DNA of 57,806 nucleotides from Magnetococcales bacterium (lineage in GTDB: Bacteria; Pseudomonadota; Magnetococcia; Magnetococcales; UBA8363). The notes beneath the pieces were generated by a model that was given only the letters and a program-made list of their open reading frames with translations, was not told where the DNA came from and did not search any database. Below are positions 35,189 to 48,400 of the stretch, in pieces; position 1 is the stretch's first letter; each line of letters begins with the position of its first letter. The stretch covers positions 1 to 57,806 of the forward strand of contig JACSDG010000012.1 of assembly GCA_015660855.1 (NCBI GenBank), in the 5' to 3' direction. The position numbers and the translations under genes are program-made.

Positions 35189-35706
35189 TTTCCTGCCTCC
35201 TTCATCTCTTGAGTTAGATCATCCACAGACACCATCAGCTGCCTGGGATGATCCATGGACGTGCCGATCATACCCCACGCATCTAATGCCCCCGGCATGA
35301 TCTTCTTTATGTCGCAATACCATGCCCCTTTCGACACATACCCATCTCCAGGCAGGATGATCAAATCCCACAGCCGGAAGTGCTTGCTGGCTCGCTCAAC
35401 AACCGCTTTTGAAACTCGCCCGCCAGATGCCCTCACCATCGCAGTCCAGATCAACGGGACTCCAAACACCGATAATCTTTGGTGCTTCTCAAGGAGACCT
35501 TCATGTTTGTCCATGACGGCAAGGATTTTCGCCTCGAACTCCCCCGGCCTTTTGAGCGCGTGAATCTCATCAAATCCCGCCAGAGGCGATGGATCGTCCG
35601 AAAAATAATGTCCATCGAAAAAAGCGGGCAGCCGCCGGCGTAGCTTGTGGGCGTCTGCCCCGCACCAAAAATCGGTGGCAATGCGTGCATGGTCTCTAAT
35701 ACCCAT
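35179..35706 (-). CDS. Phage protein of unknown function in tail module
   Basis: From ATG 35706 the protein has 175 residues and overlaps the tail-hub gene end by 11 bp. No membrane segment or recognised motif is present. It is rich in Trp/Arg/His and contains 'FDEIHALKRPGEFEAKILAV', which suggests a small globular enzyme or DNA-binding protein rather than a structural repeat protein. Position suggests a tail or fibre assembly role, but a moron gene is equally possible. Confidence 0.55.
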   Translation of the reverse strand: MGIRDHARIATDFWCGADAHKLRRRLPAFFDGHYFSDDPSPLAGFDEIHALKRPGEFEAKILAVMDKHEGLLEKHQRLSVFGVPLIWTAMVRASGGRVSKAVVERASKHFRLWDLIILPGDGYVSKGAWYCDIKKIMPGALDAWGMIGTSMDHPRQLMVSVDDLTQEMKEAGKWQ

Positions 35707-38029
35707 AAGGCTGCATCCCATACTGTCCGTGACCATAGCCCAGGTAATCCCCGTCATAGTTGCCGCTGACATACAAAGTAAGCGATGGGGCGGTGCCGGT
35801 GTTGTTGGAGTTGATATGCAAAGTTACGGCCCGGATATGGATCAGACCGTAGCGCATCGGCCAGGTAAATGTGAACGGGCCATTGACGACCGCAGCGACA
35901 GATGTCCAGTTGGCTCCGTCGTGACTCCATTGAATGGATGCCGTGTCATACCTCTGCGTAGGCTTGACCCAGTCCACTGTGATTTCTGTCCCGCCACTTG
36001 AAGGGAACACTGTATTGACGATCTGGAAATTCACTACCGCAGCAGGACCAGCCGGTGGCCCTGGCCATCCCTGTACCGCCTCCAATTCAGCAATTTGATT
36101 GTACCATGGGCTGTAGGACGGTTCGTCATAGACGCTTGCATTGTACTGGGCGCATTCGATTTGATAGATAAACGATTCAACTTCTTCGATGGAAAGTACA
36201 CGCCACTGTCTGGCACCGACGATGGAATTGGTTGTACTTTCAATCTCGATGACGCTTCCGACGGGTATCACCCGCGCCGTCTCCATGCCAACCGTGAAAC
36301 GGCACCAGTAGGGGCAATCCTGAATAGTCCGCAAAATGAAGTGCGCCAGTCGATAGGCCTGAGTTTGGTTGGTGACGCCAGTAAGATCGACAGTCTGAAT
36401 CTGGAGGCCATCTCTGGCGATGGCATTCAGATCTTCGGCATATACCCGCTCAATGGTATAGCCGTAGAACGGCTCGACATACTGGCCTTCGATACGATTG
36501 GGACGTGACGACGATTGGATTCCGGCCCGCAGGCTTCCAGGAACGATCTCGATCTCCCCGACCTTGTAGGTTGCCGGTTCAATATCGTCGGGCTTAAGGT
36601 AGATCTTTCCATCCCGCACCAGCGTTATGATCCGTCCGGCAGTGCAAATTTCACGCAACACTTGGTCTGAGTCGTAAAACGATGCGTAGGTGCGATTGAA
36701 GCCAAGTCCTTTTTGTTCACACCAGTATGACGTCGCAAACTGTGAAGTCCCATCGACAATCCCGCCGGGCAGTCCGAGACCGACGACAGGATCGGTCAGA
36801 AAAATCAGCAGGGCGTCAGCGGGATTGCCCCCCATACCGGATACGCCGCCGGCATGTACCAATCCGCTGATGACGGGATTGTTTGAGCCAAGGGAGGCAT
36901 CTTTGACCAGGTGGACATGGACAAAAGCGGCGTTGATCCTTGGATTCTCCGAATAAGGGACGTCGGTGATGTCAAATTTATAAATCCCAGCCTGCCCCCC
37001 CAAATCTCCCCCGGATAGATTCAGCACCTCCAGTTTGAGGGACCACCGCGACAGCGTGTTGGAAATTTCAAACACATGCGATCGCAGGACGTTCCCCGGC
37101 GAATCCACGGTAGAACTGCCCTTGCCTCCGCCGCCGTTATGAACGCGGATATTGTTGGCGATATAGGTCGAATATTCAGCCACTATCAAGTTGTAGGTGT
37201 GAATTTCAGGCCCGGTTCTTTTAATCTGGGTGGATGACACTCGGCATTCGCCTTGCTCCCGATCAAACACAATATCGCCCGCTCTTATAGCGTCGGCTTG
37301 GATGAATCCTTTATCTTTCACCAGGATGTAATGGGTGTCGGTAACCACCAGAAAGTTTGGTCCTGCGTGCAGGTAGACCAGACTTTCCTGCTTGAAGTGG
37401 CGTGATACATCCTCCACCAAGGCATGGTGGAGGTGACCTTCATCATCATAGGCGATGACTGCGTCTCCCGGACAAATCGATTCGATTGCCACATCCCCAC
37501 ATGGCGTGGACACCATGGTACCCAGGGGAAAACAGGAGACAGTCTGTGATGTGGAGAAGGTCTCAGTGAAAGTATCGGATGATCTGATCTGGTTTGGGTC
37601 GTCAATATTGACCAACACCCACCGCCAGCTTTGGGTCGATCCTTCCTTTGGCCAGGTGTGGTACGAATAGCAGGTAACCGTTCCGCCACCATAGAGCGTG
37701 ACAGGCACTGGGGCTGCAACATCGCCAACGGCATTGGTCAACTGGAAAATATTCCACGTCCCGCTGTTGTTCAGAGAAATCTGCGCTTGCCCACCTTGCG
37801 GGTAGAACACATACCATGCAGAGTCGGAATTTTGGTTGCCTCCGGTGCGGGTGTAGTAGTTTGTAAGATCCTCAATGCGGTATTTGTCGATGTAAAGCTG
37901 ATCCAGGGTGATCCCTACTTCGCCGAGAACGACGAGATAATGGGCTTTTTCATAATTGCCACCATAAATCCGGGCATGAACAACCATCCCGTTGGAGCGA
38001 CTCTGCCCGTAAGTGATCGGTACGGGCAT
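35696..38029 (-). CDS. Tail hub/tip protein (gpJ-like) containing a Hint domain
   Basis: From ATG 38029, one base after the preceding stop, the protein has 777 residues. Residues 1-165 and 299-777 belong to a siphovirus central tail protein: 'MPVPITYGQSRSNGMVVHAR' at the start, 'FDITDVPYSENPRINAAFVH', 'REICTAGRIITLVRDGKIYL' and 'VIPVGSVIEIESTTNSIVGA' fit the TipJ/Phage-tail_3 type hub, followed by fibronectin-like sequence ('IQWSHDGANWTSVAAVVNGP') and a Gly/Tyr-rich tail. Residues 166-298 are an inserted Hint domain (separate entry). The hub connects the tail tube to fibres and contacts the host envelope. The frame is intact across the insertion, so excision or cleavage would happen at the protein level. 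Confidence 0.85.
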   Translation of the reverse strand: MPVPITYGQSRSNGMVVHARIYGGNYEKAHYLVVLGEVGITLDQLYIDKYRIEDLTNYYTRTGGNQNSDSAWYVFYPQGGQAQISLNNSGTWNIFQLTNAVGDVAAPVPVTLYGGGTVTCYSYHTWPKEGSTQSWRWVLVNIDDPNQIRSSDTFTETFSTSQTVSCFPLGTMVSTPCGDVAIESICPGDAVIAYDDEGHLHHALVEDVSRHFKQESLVYLHAGPNFLVVTDTHYILVKDKGFIQADAIRAGDIVFDREQGECRVSSTQIKRTGPEIHTYNLIVAEYSTYIANNIRVHNGGGGKGSSTVDSPGNVLRSHVFEISNTLSRWSLKLEVLNLSGGDLGGQAGIYKFDITDVPYSENPRINAAFVHVHLVKDASLGSNNPVISGLVHAGGVSGMGGNPADALLIFLTDPVVGLGLPGGIVDGTSQFATSYWCEQKGLGFNRTYASFYDSDQVLREICTAGRIITLVRDGKIYLKPDDIEPATYKVGEIEIVPGSLRAGIQSSSRPNRIEGQYVEPFYGYTIERVYAEDLNAIARDGLQIQTVDLTGVTNQTQAYRLAHFILRTIQDCPYWCRFTVGMETARVIPVGSVIEIESTTNSIVGARQWRVLSIEEVESFIYQIECAQYNASVYDEPSYSPWYNQIAELEAVQGWPGPPAGPAAVVNFQIVNTVFPSSGGTEITVDWVKPTQRYDTASIQWSHDGANWTSVAAVVNGPFTFTWPMRYGLIHIRAVTLHINSNNTGTAPSLTLYVSGNYDGDYLGYGHGQYGMQPYGY
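37136..37534 (-). other. Hint / bacterial intein-like (BIL) domain inside the tail hub
   Basis: The 133-residue insert starts with Cys166 ('CFPLGTMVSTPCGDVAIESI', block A), has block B 'TDTHYILV' with Thr230 and His233, and ends with 'YNLIVAEYSTYIANNIRVHN' (block F and the terminal His297-Asn298). The residue after Asn is Gly (GGGGK), not Cys, Ser or Thr, so canonical protein splicing is not expected; this is the hallmark of BIL domains, which cleave at one or both ends and splice only inefficiently. There is no homing endonuclease between blocks B and F. The short length matches BIL domains. Confidence 0.85.
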
Positions 38030-38030
38030 T

Positions 38031-39842
38031 TCAGTCGACGATCCTGGGAGGAGCGAAAGGGGACGCCGTAAACCAGGTATCTGGGGTGCCGTCGGGACCG
38101 ATGAAAGACCCGGTTTTGCGATCAAAGACCCAGGCCCGTTCCCAGACACCATTGACGTATACTTGCGATATCCGATGATTCGGCATGGACTGGCCGCTGT
38201 AAATCACCGCCGTATGCGGGACGTACGTTTTTATTCTTTGAAGCTGGTTTGTAAGATTGCCGTTGACCGTCAGCAGTGGCGAAGAAGACTGGGCCACGAC
38301 CGACCCGTTGACGAAAAAACAAGATCCCGGTGCCCCCTCGAAACACGGGAACCATCGGATGGCCTGACCATCCCAGGTAGGCACGCAGTGACGTAAAGTT
38401 TCTTTCCGGATCCTCCAGTACATGACGGAACCTTCTTTGCCGCCATCAACCTGATAGAGATAGCGAAAATTATGGTCTGTTTCGCTGGTCCCCTGATAGA
38501 CGAACAGAGAGTTCCCATAGAAATAAATTTGCACTCTCAAGTTGGAAAAATGCAGGTAGACAGAGGTCTGGTCGCCTTGTAACGCCGTATGCCAGCCTGG
38601 TTGATCGGGATCCAGCTCCATATAGACGAAGATGGGGATGGATTCGGTCTGTGGGAAATCTGCCGCCAGCGTTACCTGGATATAAACATGTGCCCTGTCA
38701 TCCCACATTTTTGCCGCCACGATACGGAGGTAATGTGGGACATAGCCGTTTTCCCATACATGCGCCCCTGACTCCACACCAACCTGGCCCCATGGACAAT
38801 CTTTGGGAGGGCGCTCCACGTCGAACCAATAATCCGGCGCGACATCGGGGGCCACTCGGCTTGCGGCGGGATTAGCATCGTCATAGCGGACAGATCCGCC
38901 GGAGAACCTTCGGGAGATGGTACTGTTTGCAGGATTGAACTGCGGTGTTTCGAGAGGGGCACCGAGATAGTAACGATGCACCAGCAGTTCCTGAAGCTCC
39001 TGATTGTCAGGGGAAATGTAGTTGAAAGACCGGATGCCCGAGGCGCGAAAGGCAGCGTAGCAGGCCAGTTGCCGCTCGTTCTGCCAGGGGGAAAGAGGGT
39101 CGCCATAGGAATGGCCATACATGACGGTGGAATAGGGACCGGAATGGGCGTATTTCCAGATATAAAGATAGGAACGAATGCCGGCCGTCCAATCCACCCC
39201 GCCAAACTCCCCGGTTTCGGCCAGGCTTTCGGCGTAGCGGTAGAAAAATGGAGAATAGGCCCATTGTGGTCGAAACGGGCTGCCTTGCCAGTGCCCAACA
39301 AAGGATTCCAGGAGAAAGATTTCCCCTTCTCGCGCAAAAAAGGAAGCACCGTTGACGATGGATCGCCCCCCTTTGGAACGCACGTAATCGCATAACGGTT
39401 TCAGGCCAGCCTCTCGCATCACCTGAGCCGCCGCAACGCCATAGTTGGCGTCCCAATACCCGACATCGCACTCGTCGAAAAAGATACCGTTGCAACCAAA
39501 ATCAAACACGTCATCGATAAATACCTTGGTCGCATTGATGTAGTCGGCGACAGCGGAGGGGTTGTATTCCGGTACCTGGAAACCATCGACGACGGCGGCT
39601 TTGCGAAAGTCCGAGCCGAAAGGGATGTATATCAGGACGGGGGTATTGATTGTGGCGCGATTGAAATTCCAAAGCGTTGACTGGTCGAGAACGATCAAAG
39701 CCCATGACGAAAAATCATGTACCTTGAGATAGGCCGGGTCACCGTAGTAAAGCCCGTATTGCTCCCAATCGTCGATCACGGTTCCACGCGCAACCGTGCC
39801 GTTGTTCATGCGTGCGTTATAGGTTTTGGCTATGGAGAGATC
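38031..39842 (-). CDS. Predicted virion glycoside hydrolase (TIM barrel, GH114-like) with beta-rich tail
   Basis: From ATG 39842, which overlaps the stop of the LamG gene (TGATG), the protein has 603 residues. Residues about 1-290 look like a TIM barrel: 'WEQYGLYYGDPAYLKVHDFS', 'SWALIVLDQSTLWNF', 'VLIYIPFGSDF', 'DFGCNGIFFDECDVGYWD' and 'RSIVNGASFFAREGEIFLLE'. The acidic cluster at the end of the fourth strand resembles catalytic residues of GH114/TM1410-type polysaccharide hydrolases. The C-terminal half is beta-rich and may bind sugar ('WDDRAHVYIQVTLAADFP'). It is positioned among tail genes, so it may be a tail-borne depolymerase acting on host surface glycan. No family search was possible. 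Confidence 0.65.
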   Translation of the reverse strand, partial: DLSIAKTYNARMNNGTVARGTVIDDWEQYGLYYGDPAYLKVHDFSSWALIVLDQSTLWNFNRATINTPVLIYIPFGSDFRKAAVVDGFQVPEYNPSAVADYINATKVFIDDVFDFGCNGIFFDECDVGYWDANYGVAAAQVMREAGLKPLCDYVRSKGGRSIVNGASFFAREGEIFLLESFVGHWQGSPFRPQWAYSPFFYRYAESLAETGEFGGVDWTAGIRSYLYIWKYAHSGPYSTVMYGHSYGDPLSPWQNERQLACYAAFRASGIRSFNYISPDNQELQELLVHRYYLGAPLETPQFNPANSTISRRFSGGSVRYDDANPAASRVAPDVAPDYWFDVERPPKDCPWGQVGVESGAHVWENGYVPHYLRIVAAKMWDDRAHVYIQVTLAADFPQTESIPIFVYMELDPDQPGWHTALQGDQTSVYLHFSNLRVQIYFYGNSLFVYQGTSETDHNFRYLYQVDGGKEGSVMYWRIRKETLRHCVPTWDGQAIRWFPCFEGAPGSCFFVNGSVVAQSSSPLLTVNGNLTNQLQRIKTYVPHTAVIYSGQSMPNHRISQVYVNGVWERAWVFDRKTGSFIGPDGTPDTWFTASPFAPPRIVD

Positions 39843-39844
39843 CA

Positions 39845-40576
39845 TCAGACAGGCCGTACTTGCAGGGAGATAAAGGTCGGTCGTGAGCAAAATCGAAGAA
39901 CTTCTGTCGGGAGATGGAGTTCCAGCAGTTCCACGACTTCGCCCTGGTTGCGTTTGATCCACCGCTTCAAGTCAACGCGATGCGCGGAGAGATCCACAAC
40001 AGCGTCCCGAATCATTATCTCACCGATGTATCCGGCAAACTGCATGTTGTAGAAAAGCGTGCGCCGTCCGATCAGGATGGTGGTGGAGTTGTCATTCCAC
40101 AAACCGCTCGGATGACAAATCCCTTTTACGCTGCCATGGACAAAAATTTTGGTATCGATAGGGCCGAGCGCGCCCTGGATAAATACCCACTGTTGCGTGG
40201 GCAAGGGGTCGCTTGAGATCGCATCCCACCAGGTGCCGCCCGAATACACGGAAAAACAGGGCTTGCCGGAAGCATCCGGGAACCAGAGTCGAAAAGACCC
40301 CTCCCGATTGATCACGACTCCGGGGCTGTCATCCTCACGGTAGATCCATGCCCCGACAGACAACCCCTGGGTGATATTAAGGTTGAACGTTCCATTTACG
40401 GACGCCGAGCTGTTGGCATTGATCGGAAAATGCAGCACCTTTCCCCGGGCTGCAAAGTTGTAGAACTCTGCGGATCCCCCCAGCGTGGCATCATGTCCGT
40501 TGCCCGTTTTATCGGTGCAAACTCCGGCGGCCTCTTCGGCTGCGGTCATGTCCCTATACCACGCGATATCGGTCAC
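39845..40576 (-). CDS. LamG-like (concanavalin-type) tail protein
   Basis: From GTG 40576, which overlaps the previous stop (GTGA) and has GGAG about eight bases upstream, the protein has 243 residues. 'DKTGNGHDATLGGSAEF', 'LSVGAWIYREDDSPGVVINR', 'WVFIQGALGPIDTKIFVHGS' and 'GYIGEIMIRDAVVDLSAH' are the strand pattern of a LamG/laminin-G jelly roll that binds carbohydrate. It sits between a minor tail protein and the predicted glycoside hydrolase, so it probably positions the tail on host polysaccharide. The C-terminal 30 residues are not part of the fold. Confidence 0.72.
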   Translation of the reverse strand: MTDIAWYRDMTAAEEAAGVCTDKTGNGHDATLGGSAEFYNFAARGKVLHFPINANSSASVNGTFNLNITQGLSVGAWIYREDDSPGVVINREGSFRLWFPDASGKPCFSVYSGGTWWDAISSDPLPTQQWVFIQGALGPIDTKIFVHGSVKGICHPSGLWNDNSTTILIGRRTLFYNMQFAGYIGEIMIRDAVVDLSAHRVDLKRWIKRNQGEVVELLELHLPTEVLRFCSRPTFISLQVRPV

Positions 40577-40941: not shown

Positions 40942-41804
40942 CAGACTCGCCTTACCACAAGATTGCGTTCATCCAAGGCGTTCAAAACCATGTTGACCAC
41001 GACATCTTTGCGTTCGGCAATGGTGTCGGCCACCAATTTTTTTATCTGATCGGGGTTTGTGACGTTGACGATTTGGATTTCCACGTTTCCACCCCCCCCG
41101 GATTGGCTGCGACCTGCCGCGTAAGATTCCGTTTCTCGCCTGGACAAGACTCTCTCGCCACGCTGCGCGATGATCGGGACTTCGTCCGGCCCGACCAGAC
41201 CACCCGAGTGAAACCTGGGTGCCCCCGAAAAAACGGAAGCGGGCACCAACCTGTGGGTCGATGCTGCACCAACGACGCCACCGTCATGCATGATGGCAGC
41301 ACTCGCCGCCATGCCTGCCATACCTCCTCCCGCGCCTGCCATGCCTGCCCCCATGGCCCCACCCAGAGCTTGCGCCAGTGCCCCGGTGACAGCCTGACGC
41401 ACGGCAATGCGCGCAAGGTCGGCCAGTATGGAGTTCACCAGGCTTCTCCAACTCGCTTTCCCTGTGGTGACAAACTGCACCAGGGTATCCTCCATGCCCC
41501 GGAAAGCGTTGGTGGTGGCGATATCCCAATTTCGGGTTGAATCCGTGACCTCTGCGGAATATGTTTTGAGTGCCTGCTGCATCCCTGCGGACCACTCCTT
41601 TCCGGATTGCGTCATGCGGTCATGGGAGTTTTTGGTTGATGCGGCCAGTTTTTCCATGGCCTGTTTTTCGTCGTACAAAGCCCCTGCCAACCGTTCCACT
41701 TCCGAGCGTTGCTGGCTGGTGGCCGTGGCCGATAACCGTCGGGTGGCTTCGGACACCTGTCGCTGCCGATCGGTCATGCTCAACTCGTCCTGTTCGATCC
41801 TCAA
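40941..41804 (-). pseudogene. Tape-measure protein, C-terminal fragment
   Basis: The 287 codons match only the C-terminus of a lambda-type tape-measure protein: coiled coil ('TDRQRQVSEATRRLSATATS'), 'MEDTLVQFVTTGKASWRSLV', Ala/Gly-rich membrane-like stretch, 'FHSGGLVGPDEVPIIAQRGE' and 'VLSRRETESY'. The matching frame extends upstream past 41804 ('DPSRRREQEAASREAVANQR') with no start codon and runs into the 3' part of the tail-tube gene in another frame. A normal tape measure has 700-1500 residues and begins after chaperone genes, which are absent. The TTG at 41804 is not a credible start. The lesion is a deletion with a junction near 41,880. Confidence 0.75.
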
Positions 41805-42448
41805 GCTTTCAATGATTCTTTGGTTGGCGACTGCCTCGCGGCTGGCAGCTTCCTGTTCCCGGCGTCTGCTTGGATCCTGAGCGTTCCGGCCGGGGCGCGA
41901 TCCAGGATATCCACGGCGGCATAGTTGATCAGGTCCTGGTGGATGACTTTGACGGCCATGTCGATATCCAGGGCATACGCCACCGCCGAATAGTTATGGA
42001 CATCCAGAGTTGGCGTATTGGTGTTGCTGACAGGCACTGGTGTTTGGAAACTGGAAAAATTGGGAACCGGGTCGGCCACGCTCGCCGGATCGGCCCACAG
42101 CCCCAGAAACTTGAATTCCAGACCGGGTGCTTTTTTGGTGTCAATCGACACCTTTACCGACCCGCGACACCCGGTCAGGGCATGCTTTTGGCCGTCCATA
42201 TGGAAATAGAGGGTCAAGGATTTTTCCCCGCTCGAAACCGGCTTGTAGCTGCAATTGACTCCGGTACTCACGGTTTCGCTGAATCCGCACCCTTGGAGCA
42301 GAACCCCCCAAGCCGGTACACTTCCCGCTGCGCCGGCACCTGCAAACTCCACCTCCACACCGATCTCGACATGCGTGCCGATATGGATTTCCGGCTCATT
42401 GCCCAGGGCAGGCTTGATAATCCCACGCTTGATGGTGTCCCCAGCCAT
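41801..42448 (-). pseudogene. Tail-tube protein lacking both ends
   Basis: The central part is a siphovirus tail-tube domain: 'HVEIGVEVEFAGAGAAGSVP', 'AWGVLLQGCGFSETV', 'SSGEKSLTLYFHMDGQKHAL' and 'ANFSSFQTPVPV'-like sequence, ending in 'DILDRAPAGTLRIQ'. Tube-like residues ('NAILARALTITP') continue upstream of the first ATG with no start codon and reach a stop, so the first 30 or so residues are missing. About 90 residues normally found after 'GTLRIQ' are replaced by frame-shifted tape-measure sequence ('NRKLPAARQSPTKESLKA'). Both boundaries look like deletion junctions. A product could be made from ATG 42448 but is unlikely to polymerise. Confidence 0.7.
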
Positions 42449-45866: not shown

Positions 45867-47846
45867 TTACTCTTCCCTGGCAAAAATCAAACTCCCTGAC
45901 CTTTTTGGCAAGACCTTCCCCGGACGGTCCATGGGAAAGGCGGTCAGACTTTCCAAAAAGCCCTTCCTGGCCTGCAACACCACAAGAAACGCCTTGCCGC
46001 TGCCATCCTTGATCCCCCGAATCATGACAGGGCGCAATTCCACTTTGCCCGTCACTTTGTGCTTCAGGAATTGCAGCCACACTTCATGCGGATTTTTGAT
46101 GGTTTCGAGTAGAAATGGCAAAAATGGAGCGCGATCGGGCTGGAGGTGATTGCCAAGCTCCTTGGCGTTAATCTTGATGGGATAGACAAAGTCCCCAGCA
46201 TCAAAAGGGATGACCGCTTCATCGCCTCCGATCAAATCCTTGATAGCTTGGATCGTTTCGCCTTTTGATGTGGCCGGGGGCAAGCGTTTTAAATCGATCT
46301 CATCCAGAGGGATTTCCCTGGGCAGTCCATGGCTTTTCCAGTCGCCGGGAATCAAAGGTTCCCAGGCCGCCCCGCTTTTCGCCGCATCCGTCATAATTTT
46401 TGCTGCCACTTGGTCACCATGGGCAGCCACCCCCACATTATAATCCCAACCTGGATCAGCGGCGTTCATCTCCGGAGCGACATCCGGACCTGCGCGTCCC
46501 ATCCGTTTAAGATCCCGCTCGGCCAGGGTGATCACTCGGCACTTGCAACCAAAGCCGTTGGGTGGATAGTTCGCACGCCACCAGGGATCACTCGCCAGAA
46601 GGATCATGCCATCTCTGGCTTTGTGCCCTGGACGTGGGTGGCCTGAGCCGGAGTGTTTGTATTGCCAGTAGGGACGACGTTTTAACAGTTCCGGATCGGT
46701 CATTTGCTGATAGCGACCCGCAGCATGGGCGGTGCGCATGTTGGTTTCCATGATCAGCCGACTGCGCCATTTGCGCGTTCCGTTGTATTCCCAATCATAG
46801 TCCGTCACCGCCCGGTCAAAAAACTTGCGAAACTCCCGGAGGGTGATGCCGTCGGCAATGGCCGCATCCACCCCACTGCGCAGATCGGCCAGCAGCCCGT
46901 CACGCAGGGCACCCGCAGAAACAAACGCCTTGGCGTGCATTTCCCCTTTAAGGTCGTCCCATTTTTCCGTTGGCAGGTTGACCTTGTCCTGGAAGAACTT
47001 GATCGCCTCCTCGAAAGGCAGGCTGCCCCATACCGCCTTGGGATCTGCAAAATCGGCTGGCTCCCTGTCTTCGTCCAACACCTCGCTACGCCCCACCAGG
47101 TGGGCCACCAGGCAAGCCTGTTGGACAAGGTCGGTAAGCGATGAGATTTTCATTTTTTTGATGAGACCGGGCAGGCGGTCGTTAAAATCGGCAAGCGTTG
47201 CCGTCTGGTCCAGCACGGCAACGGCGGGGGCCAGCATTTCTTCCAGCAGGGGATTCATGCGGGCGATAGCCTGCTCGATCATCGGTGCAACCGGGTCGTC
47301 GTCTTCGTCAGCGGCAGCCTCGGCAAACTCCCTGGCTTCCTTGGCAGGTCGGATTTTATTTCCCGCTTCGACGGGGACCGACGCCGCCTCCCAACCATCG
47401 CCATAGGTCGCCCGGATGTATTCCAAAGTGGGTCGAAAGCCCATGTCGAAAACAATTTTGTCGCGACCAGCCCGCGCGGTCAACCCTTCCGGCTCTTCCA
47501 CCTCCCGCCATACCCTGGGCGGGACAGCGTTGGGAAAATTCCACTCCGTCAACCATCGCCCCACCGATTGACTGAAGGAATGACAGATCAAATCGGCATC
47601 ACTCTGAACCACTTCATTGCGGACCGATTTTTGTACATCCCCCTTATACTGTCCGCCAGCGGCATCGGTGGTCATGGTCTGCGACAACACCACCTTGGAG
47701 ATGGCATCATTCATCCGGTCGGTCAGATCGGAAAAACTGGCATAACCGCTGCCGCCTTTGCCGCCAGGACCGAGAAGCTCCACCAGCATTCCGTCCGGGA
47801 TGACAATCGCCCCCTGCGCATGCGCCGACTGGATGGCTTCATGCAA
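45867..47846 (-). CDS. Portal C-terminus fused to MuF head protein with C-terminal nuclease-like domain
   Basis: In this 659-codon frame, residues 1-270 are the last part of a DUF935 (Mu gp29) portal ('GAIVIPDGMLVELLGPGGKG', 'SKVVLSQTMTTDAAGGQYKG'); about 280-440 are the MuF/SPP1 gp7 head-morphogenesis domain ('LPFEEAIKFFQDKVNLPTEK', 'LIMETNMRTAHAAGRYQQMT', 'PWWRANYPPNGFGCKCRV'); about 555-659 resemble a PBECR-type (phage Barnase-EndoU-ColicinE5/D-RelE-like) nuclease ('PFLPFLLETIKNPHEVWLQF', 'KAFLVVLQARKGFLESLTAF'). The portal N-terminal part is missing: the frame begins at a TTG inside terminase sequence. Portal-MuF fusion occurs in some phages; the missing 5' end is a deletion. Confidence 0.8.
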   Translation of the reverse strand: MHEAIQSAHAQGAIVIPDGMLVELLGPGGKGGSGYASFSDLTDRMNDAISKVVLSQTMTTDAAGGQYKGDVQKSVRNEVVQSDADLICHSFSQSVGRWLTEWNFPNAVPPRVWREVEEPEGLTARAGRDKIVFDMGFRPTLEYIRATYGDGWEAASVPVEAGNKIRPAKEAREFAEAAADEDDDPVAPMIEQAIARMNPLLEEMLAPAVAVLDQTATLADFNDRLPGLIKKMKISSLTDLVQQACLVAHLVGRSEVLDEDREPADFADPKAVWGSLPFEEAIKFFQDKVNLPTEKWDDLKGEMHAKAFVSAGALRDGLLADLRSGVDAAIADGITLREFRKFFDRAVTDYDWEYNGTRKWRSRLIMETNMRTAHAAGRYQQMTDPELLKRRPYWQYKHSGSGHPRPGHKARDGMILLASDPWWRANYPPNGFGCKCRVITLAERDLKRMGRAGPDVAPEMNAADPGWDYNVGVAAHGDQVAAKIMTDAAKSGAAWEPLIPGDWKSHGLPREIPLDEIDLKRLPPATSKGETIQAIKDLIGGDEAVIPFDAGDFVYPIKINAKELGNHLQPDRAPFLPFLLETIKNPHEVWLQFLKHKVTGKVELRPVMIRGIKDGSGKAFLVVLQARKGFLESLTAFPMDRPGKVLPKRSGSLIFAREE

Positions 47847-48400
47847 CTTTTCTTGCCGGCACGAATCTCTTCGAGTAGTTCATTGAATGCGTTGTGGTTG
47901 CCGTTGTGGGTGGAGATGATACGGACCCGACCGCCCCAGATGGTCAGAGCCATGGCCGCCTTGATCAGTCCCCCCAGGTCATCGTGAAACGCCGCCTCGT
48001 CGATTACCACCACCCCCTGCTTGCCGCGCAAGTTGGAAGGTCTCGAAGACAGAGCGGTGACGCGATAGCCCGATTGGAAACGAATCACGTAGGTCAAAAT
48101 CTCCCGATCGCCGTCCTCATCCTTAAAGACTTCCTCTTCAACCTTGACTGCAACCTTGTGGTAAATCTTGGCCCAACCGGCGGCGTCCCGAACAAACTCC
48201 TGCGCCATATCCTTGTTGTAGCCCACATACCAGACATCCATCCCTCCGGCATCTTTGGAGGAGGCAGCGGTCAGTGCCGCATCGGCCGCTTCGCACCAGG
48301 AAAGACCGACACGGCGCGACTTTTCGCACACCTTGACCTTGGAGCGATCCGCCATCCAGGCTTTTTGATACGGCAAAAACAGACTTTGCGCCTCGTTCAT
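47723..48400 (-). pseudogene. Large terminase subunit (Mu gp28-like), nuclease half deleted
   Basis: The first 180 residues are a terminase ATPase: 'VCEKSRRVGLSWCEAADAAL' (Walker A-like), 'GVVVIDEAAFHDD' (Walker B) and 'IISTHNGNHNAFNELLEEI' (coupling motif). A normal protein continues for about 350 residues with an RNase H-like nuclease. Here, after 'EEIRAGKK' near 47,860, the sequence is joined to the portal gene in another frame and the terminase frame goes on as 45 nonsense residues to 47723. The junction removes roughly 1.5-2 kb (terminase nuclease plus portal N-terminus). Packaging should therefore be impossible. The start overlaps the small terminase stop by four bases. Confidence 0.82.

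Follow-up and report, generated by a model that had tools for sequence, protein, structure and literature searches.

A Hint domain without a +1 nucleophile in a prophage tail hub, and a related group of Hints in gpJ-type proteins of uncultured viruses

The window, a stretch of 57,806 nucleotides from a Magnetococcales genome assembly (contig JACSDG010000012.1), carries ordinary bacterial genes at 0.5-26 kb and prophage genes for terminase, portal, protease, capsid, tube and tape measure at 41-49 kb. In the same prophage, the minus strand at 35696..38152 encodes a gpJ-type tail hub in one continuous open frame of 818 codons that runs across the Hint region described below. Residues are numbered here from ATG 38152, which gives a protein of 818 aa; the more likely start of the hub is ATG 38029, immediately 3' of the stop of the upstream gene. 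The upstream protein (643 aa, 38031-39962) had no family match except one weak domain match, and is about 63% conserved in relatives, where it has 950-964 aa.

The identification of the host as a phage tail hub, already made in the original prediction, was supported by several profiles. The central tail fiber family phrog_31 matched hub residues 443-763 (6e-27), PF13550 matched residues 497-656 above its cut-off, and the TipJ-related family NF040662 matched at 8.9e-12 (44 bits, under its 140-bit cut-off). The PDB chains of lambda gpJ (8iyk/9e7m) were matched at about 1e-5. Both homology regions lie in the C-extein (35699..37135, minus strand). The N-extein, read from ATG 38029 (residues 42-206; 37535..38029, minus strand), lacks about 67 native residues that the Hint-free orthologues have. 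No relative of the whole hub was found in the viral contigs, either by single-protein search or with the hub alignment, and a close relative was likewise missing from the phage collection; 28 records matched there, all within the Hint among the matches listed. A Hint-free orthologue matched 10 records of the same collection at 23-26% identity. The structure model of the hub had a mean pLDDT of 48.7 and was confident mainly across the Hint.

The Hint domain (37136..37534, minus strand) is complete at 133 residues, from Cys207 to Asn339, which were given as Cys166 and Asn298 in the original prediction, numbered from the in-frame ATG 38029. It is a mini-Hint without an endonuclease. The best Pfam family was PT-HINT (PF07591; 2.2e-9, residues 213-339, 38.2 bits, cut-off 27.7), followed by Hint_2 at 7.3e-6, slightly under its cut-off; this was the single PT-HINT match in the 4.5-Mb genome assembly. 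With phmmer the best PDB match was the bacterial intein-like (BIL) domain 2lwy (1.6e-11, Hint residues 2-133), and the AlphaFold2 model (pLDDT about 88-98) was matched by Foldseek to the same Clostridium thermocellum structure with a TM score of 0.90 at 1.5 A. The domain is A-type BIL-like, with blocks A, B and F and a terminal His-Asn.

The predicted block A nucleophile, Cys207, is encoded at 37532..37534, block B (TDTH, T271-H274) at 37331..37342, and the C-terminal catalytic pair His338-Asn339 at 37136..37141, all on the minus strand. One departure was found, namely Ser328 (37169..37171, minus strand) in place of the block-F His (HTY) of most relatives. The residue after the terminal Asn is Gly340 in the translation, as had been predicted, and the residue before the Hint is Ser206 instead of the usual Gly.

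Two Hint-free orthologues of the hub, both from Magnetococcales assemblies, were found in a scan of public genomes (L013 and L014). They were 54.6 and 56.0% identical to the window hub over residues 1-206, and 62.7% over the remainder. At the site, TSQTVS[Hint]GGGGKGSSTVDSPGNVLRSH in the window is aligned with EEVEVS-GNYAKVPGSKLRSH in the orthologues, so that VS[Hint]GGGGK stands against VSGNYAK in both, a clean insertion. The proposed comparison with Hint-free hubs therefore places the insertion point at VS|G, and both orthologues are continuous across it, as at the empty site of an intein. The DNA across the insertion measures 503 bp in the window and 86 bp in L314. A model of the Hint-free hub puts the site in the turn that links strands 232-236 and 239-243 (local pLDDT about 56-67), a tentative placement because this model is poor (mean pLDDT 42.7).

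In comparison with two related prophages, that of the window carries five internal deletions between 38042 and 48400. About 1.2 kb is missing at the junction 38042..38048 (minus strand), which cost the upstream gene its end and the hub its start, the first ~67 residues. A second gap of about 0.35 kb lies near 39.85 kb, and a third of about 2.7 kb, at 41778..41867 (minus strand), removed the last part of the tail tube and the greater part of the tape measure. The fourth, of about 1.0 kb, falls between capsid and tube. The fifth, of about 1.7 kb, cuts the terminase large subunit at about residue 189 of 525, so that it abuts a portal protein that begins near residue 242, without its first ~241 residues (47723..48400, minus strand). 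A fault of the assembly could have produced these junctions, although with five of them decay is the simpler reading. The prophage is probably defective, given its five deletions and a hub that is missing ~67 residues of its native N-terminus, and the Hint copy of the window may therefore no longer be under selection. The suggestion that the hub looks functional on both sides of the Hint was thus borne out in part: the flanks form one chain in the Hint-free orthologues, but the native N-terminus is deleted and four more deletions lie within the prophage.

This damage, with the hub N-terminus lost, is what would be expected if the Hint were an inactive relic, folded but dead, in a decaying prophage. 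The same reading would account for the Ser in place of the block-F His and for Thr at position 273, where Asn was found in 58 of 79 viral relatives among the matches listed. Against it, Cys1, the block B Thr and His, and the His-Asn pair are all intact, the frame is open over 818 codons, and the block-F position also varies among the viral relatives, with Pro, Lys, Gln and Asn visible among the matches listed. A relic is regarded as improbable.

The relatives in question come from uncultured viruses. A search of IMG/VR with the pattern His-Asn-GGGG-K-G, which fixes His-Asn and a Gly at +1, gave 49 contigs, of which 42 were read as Hints and 7 as non-Hint. Two further patterns were used on viral sequences, one fixing Gly at -1 and the other fixing His-Asn but neither flank. 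All patterns together gave at least 255 viral loci, with 222 domain matches in 176 of the 255; 159 near full-length Hints (139 loci) were kept, and 115 of these, among the matches listed, remained once identical domains were removed. Of 24 Hints kept in one selection, 20 entered set A1 together with that of the window. Contigs of uncultured viruses thus contain about a hundred or more Hints related to that of the window, which mostly sit in the Gly-rich N-terminal part of gpJ; no earlier description of this group was found in the openly licensed literature.

At +1, the 115 viral Hints among the matches listed had Gly (63), Lys (42), Arg (4) or one each of Leu, Phe, Thr, Met, Ser and Ile. Gly or Lys was accordingly present in 105 of 115, and Cys, Ser or Thr in two; Gly stood at -1 in 83. 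For the 69 Hints among the matches listed that came newly from the pattern fixing neither flank, the +1 residue was Lys in 37, Gly in 25, Arg in three, and Leu, Phe, Thr or Met in one each, with no Cys or Ser. The original prediction had hinged on the block residues being conserved among homologues. In 79 viral Hints less than 85% alike, among the matches listed, Cys1 and the block B His were found in all 79, the block B Thr in 76 and the final Asn in 78, a count partly built in by the search patterns.

Downstream of the viral Hints, among the matches listed, the regions matched phrog_31 gpJ in 42 of 69 cases, the gpJ FNIII-A domain in 38 and the tail assembly protein phrog_32 in seven. The host classes of the 115 Hints were assigned from crude motifs, which left 55 unclassified; by such a motif 12 Hints among the matches listed lay in Gly-rich gpI-like proteins, and the 47 classed as J N-terminal started at a median of residue 28. 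Two to four Hints per viral ORF occurred in tandem at eight loci (L045, L053, L059, L190, L095, L193, L125 and L156), several being spaced by GGGGKGG or by one Lys alone. In five contigs (L015, L019, L060, L166 and L169) a gpI-like protein and a separate large ORF each had one Hint, the flanks being mostly non-Gly in the large ORF. A cellular genome (G169, locus L072) encoded a putatively GTA-like hub in which a Hint is flanked by GGGGKG and GGGGGGGKSGSYTYQAAVAIGLCEGPV.

Three Hint queries against 50,697 phage records (best 60 of 78 matches, 18 of 18 and 18 of 18) found mostly helicases, portal, terminase, other enzymes and hypothetical proteins. The annotation gpJ was absent among the matches listed for these queries, some records being unannotated, and two records (H91 and H96) were annotated as 'RNA ligase and tail fiber protein attachment catalyst'.

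Presence and absence of the Hint were also compared within viral gpJ families. Among the loci found with the gpJ of L096, 19 of 21 carried the Hint and two did not. The Hint-bearing form VPYIVGSKG[Hint]KGGGGGKGG..PNTLYSTD corresponds to VPKIIGAGGGKGGGG..PNSLFSTD in Hint-free L361 and to VPEIRGAGGGKGGG..PNSLFSTD in Hint-free L363, both of which are continuous at VGSKG[Hint]KGGGG (or close variants) of the Hint-bearing relatives. Similarly, DVEGAG[Hint]GGGDKSGG in a viral gpJ stands against WIEGAGGGGKGGGG in a Hint-free Halomonas phage. In the loci found with L123 the Hint was present in three of 22 and none was seen in 19, including L340, whose 5' end is truncated. A GKGGGG N-terminus is kept by several of these 19; many are without the Gly-rich tail, indicating that the tail is dispensable in some phages. 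All six named phages used as Hint-free references had a short Gly/Lys motif at the site.

The dN/dS ratio of the Hint was 0.015-0.42 in all pairs listed (Hint dS 0.05-1.5; 22 Hint-bearing loci, in the J families tested), as computed among viral relatives, a different lineage from the window hub. In some pairs the dS values of Hint and gpJ extein were far apart (0.20 vs 0.83 in L344/L345; 1.20 vs 0.38 in L348/L354), and the disagreement runs in opposite directions in L344/L345/L355 and in L348/L354. A mismatch of this kind is expected if Hints move among gpJ genes, and it suggests that Hints have been exchanged between them.

In the tree, the window Hint fell in a clade of 12 with a local support of 0.909 and long branches. 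Nine of its 11 clade-mates were gpJ N-terminal by motif, and the other two (L062 and L218) were read likewise from their flanks. The GGGGKGSSTVDS tail that follows the window Hint (37100..37135, minus strand), where the Hint-free orthologues have GNYAKV, resembles GGGGKGSYTPVDS and GGGGKGSKTPVNS of Hint-carrying gpJ N-termini and apparently arrived with the Hint. The window Hint therefore looks like an offshoot of the gpJ-associated group, not a lone oddity. The family at the Gly-rich gpJ N-terminus appears to be the source of the cassette, which brought the GGGGKGS tail along. Its site in the window is a poorly conserved hub loop, that of the viral relatives a recurrent Gly-rich gpJ motif. 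Judged by its distance from a shared NPA motif, the window Hint is about 170 residues further into the hub than the viral gpJ site, which is an estimate owing to the weak profile alignment of the Hint-free and window hubs to viral gpJ (46.5% probability). A move from the N-terminal site together with the tail would be the simplest history, the donor being deduced from these resemblances.

The original prediction held that classical splicing is not possible. This stands for standard trans-esterification, which is blocked by Gly at +1, but A-type BILs can splice without a +1 nucleophile according to PMC4031507. In the route described there, Cys1 forms a thioester, Asn cyclises, and the freed amino group attacks the N-terminal thioester; splicing in this way is open to type A BILs that have His-Asn, although cleavage products dominate. 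Applied to the window, Cys207 would accept the Ser206 acyl group in an N-S shift assisted by T271 and H274 of block B, and Asn339 with His338 would cyclise, releasing Gly340. The unhindered Gly340 amine could then attack the thioester and join Ser206 to Gly340, giving a mature hub with ...TVS-GGGGKGSS..., like the ...EVS-GNYAK... of the Hint-free orthologues. Gly at +1 would be a favourable amine, and separate N- and C-cleavage an expected side reaction.

We put the chances at about even that the window Hint is an A-type BIL which splices itself out with cleavage as a side reaction, a putative activity. In its favour are the intact C1, TxxH and HN within a confident Hint fold near a BIL, the continuity of the Hint-free orthologues and of Hint-free viral gpJ across the site, the low Hint dN/dS among viral relatives, the published precedent and the placement in the gpJ-associated clade; the Ser at -1 instead of Gly and the Ser for the block-F His are points against. 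Splicing is possible and cleavage likely as well, and we infer an active copy in which ligation dominates over cleavage.

If the Hint only cleaved, it would cut at Asn339-Gly340 and/or before Cys207 and leave the ends unjoined, either as a nicked hub that is non-covalently held or, in gpJ with an N-terminal Hint, as a protein with its leader trimmed off. BILs without a +1 nucleophile give mostly cleaved products, as stated in PMC7664689 and PMC4031507. The gpJ Hint usually follows a short leader, as its median start shows, so that a gpJ of normal length would remain, and the leader is absent from many Hint-free gpJ. On the other hand, both flanks in the window are hub parts that form one chain in the orthologues, and Hint-bearing gpJ and its Hint-free relatives have similar leaders, an unexpected similarity for a segment that is thrown away. 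The resemblance of the N-extein to Hint-free relatives favours its being kept, and cleavage alone is judged rather unlikely.

If a neighbouring tail-tip subunit captured the Cys207 thioester with a Lys or its N-terminal Gly, the two subunits would instead be joined covalently. Such cross-linking or transamidation is brought to mind by 6y75 and 6tmm among the Foldseek matches, BIL-type Hints from ciliate polyubiquitin loci that presumably have a conjugation role, and by the Gly/Lys-rich flanks usual in the viral group. No candidate acceptor was identified, and the -1 residue in the window is Ser, which leaves this reading highly improbable.

A wider and more tentative proposal concerns the group. 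Uncultured phages may hold a distinct nucleophile-free self-splicing lineage, specific to the tail-tip proteins gpJ and gpI-like and fixed at a Gly-rich motif, that splices via a free Gly or Lys amine and perhaps times tail-tip assembly, the window copy having moved to an internal hub turn. If an essential virion protein recurrently hosts BILs that all lack the +1 nucleophile but keep the active site otherwise, nucleophile-free splicing would become directly testable in a natural setting, and natural pairs with and without the Hint exist for comparison. Such a group would also raise the question of whether phages control tail assembly through such splicing.

The chemistry and the domain family are already known; no paper on gpJ- or gpI-associated Hints was found in the openly licensed literature. 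BILs are usually treated as elements of variable or secreted proteins. The pretoxin HINT family (PF07591) is the best Pfam match, but here the host is a tail hub in which gpJ homology resumes after the Hint and no C-terminal toxin domain follows; a polymorphic toxin with PT-HINT was ruled out by the hub sequence that follows the Hint. The hub resembles lambda-type gpJ in its C-terminal half (phrog_31, PF13550 and the lambda PDB chains), but is a remote relative that carries a Hint and has its native N-terminus deleted. Class 1 mini-inteins share the fold, the block A, B and F residues and a recurrent insertion point with empty-site alleles, but a standard class 1 intein was ruled out by the lack of a +1 nucleophile, the Cys, Ser or Thr being replaced by Gly in the window and by Gly or Lys in most viral relatives. 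The closest likeness is to the A-type BIL of Clostridium thermocellum (2lwy), which has the same fold, about 133 aa, Cys1, TxxH, a terminal His-Asn and no +1 nucleophile. Whereas PMC2814812 and PMC5874633 describe BILs in non-conserved regions of variable proteins, the host of the group reported here is a core protein of the virion, and the site is often a Gly-rich gpJ motif that recurs.
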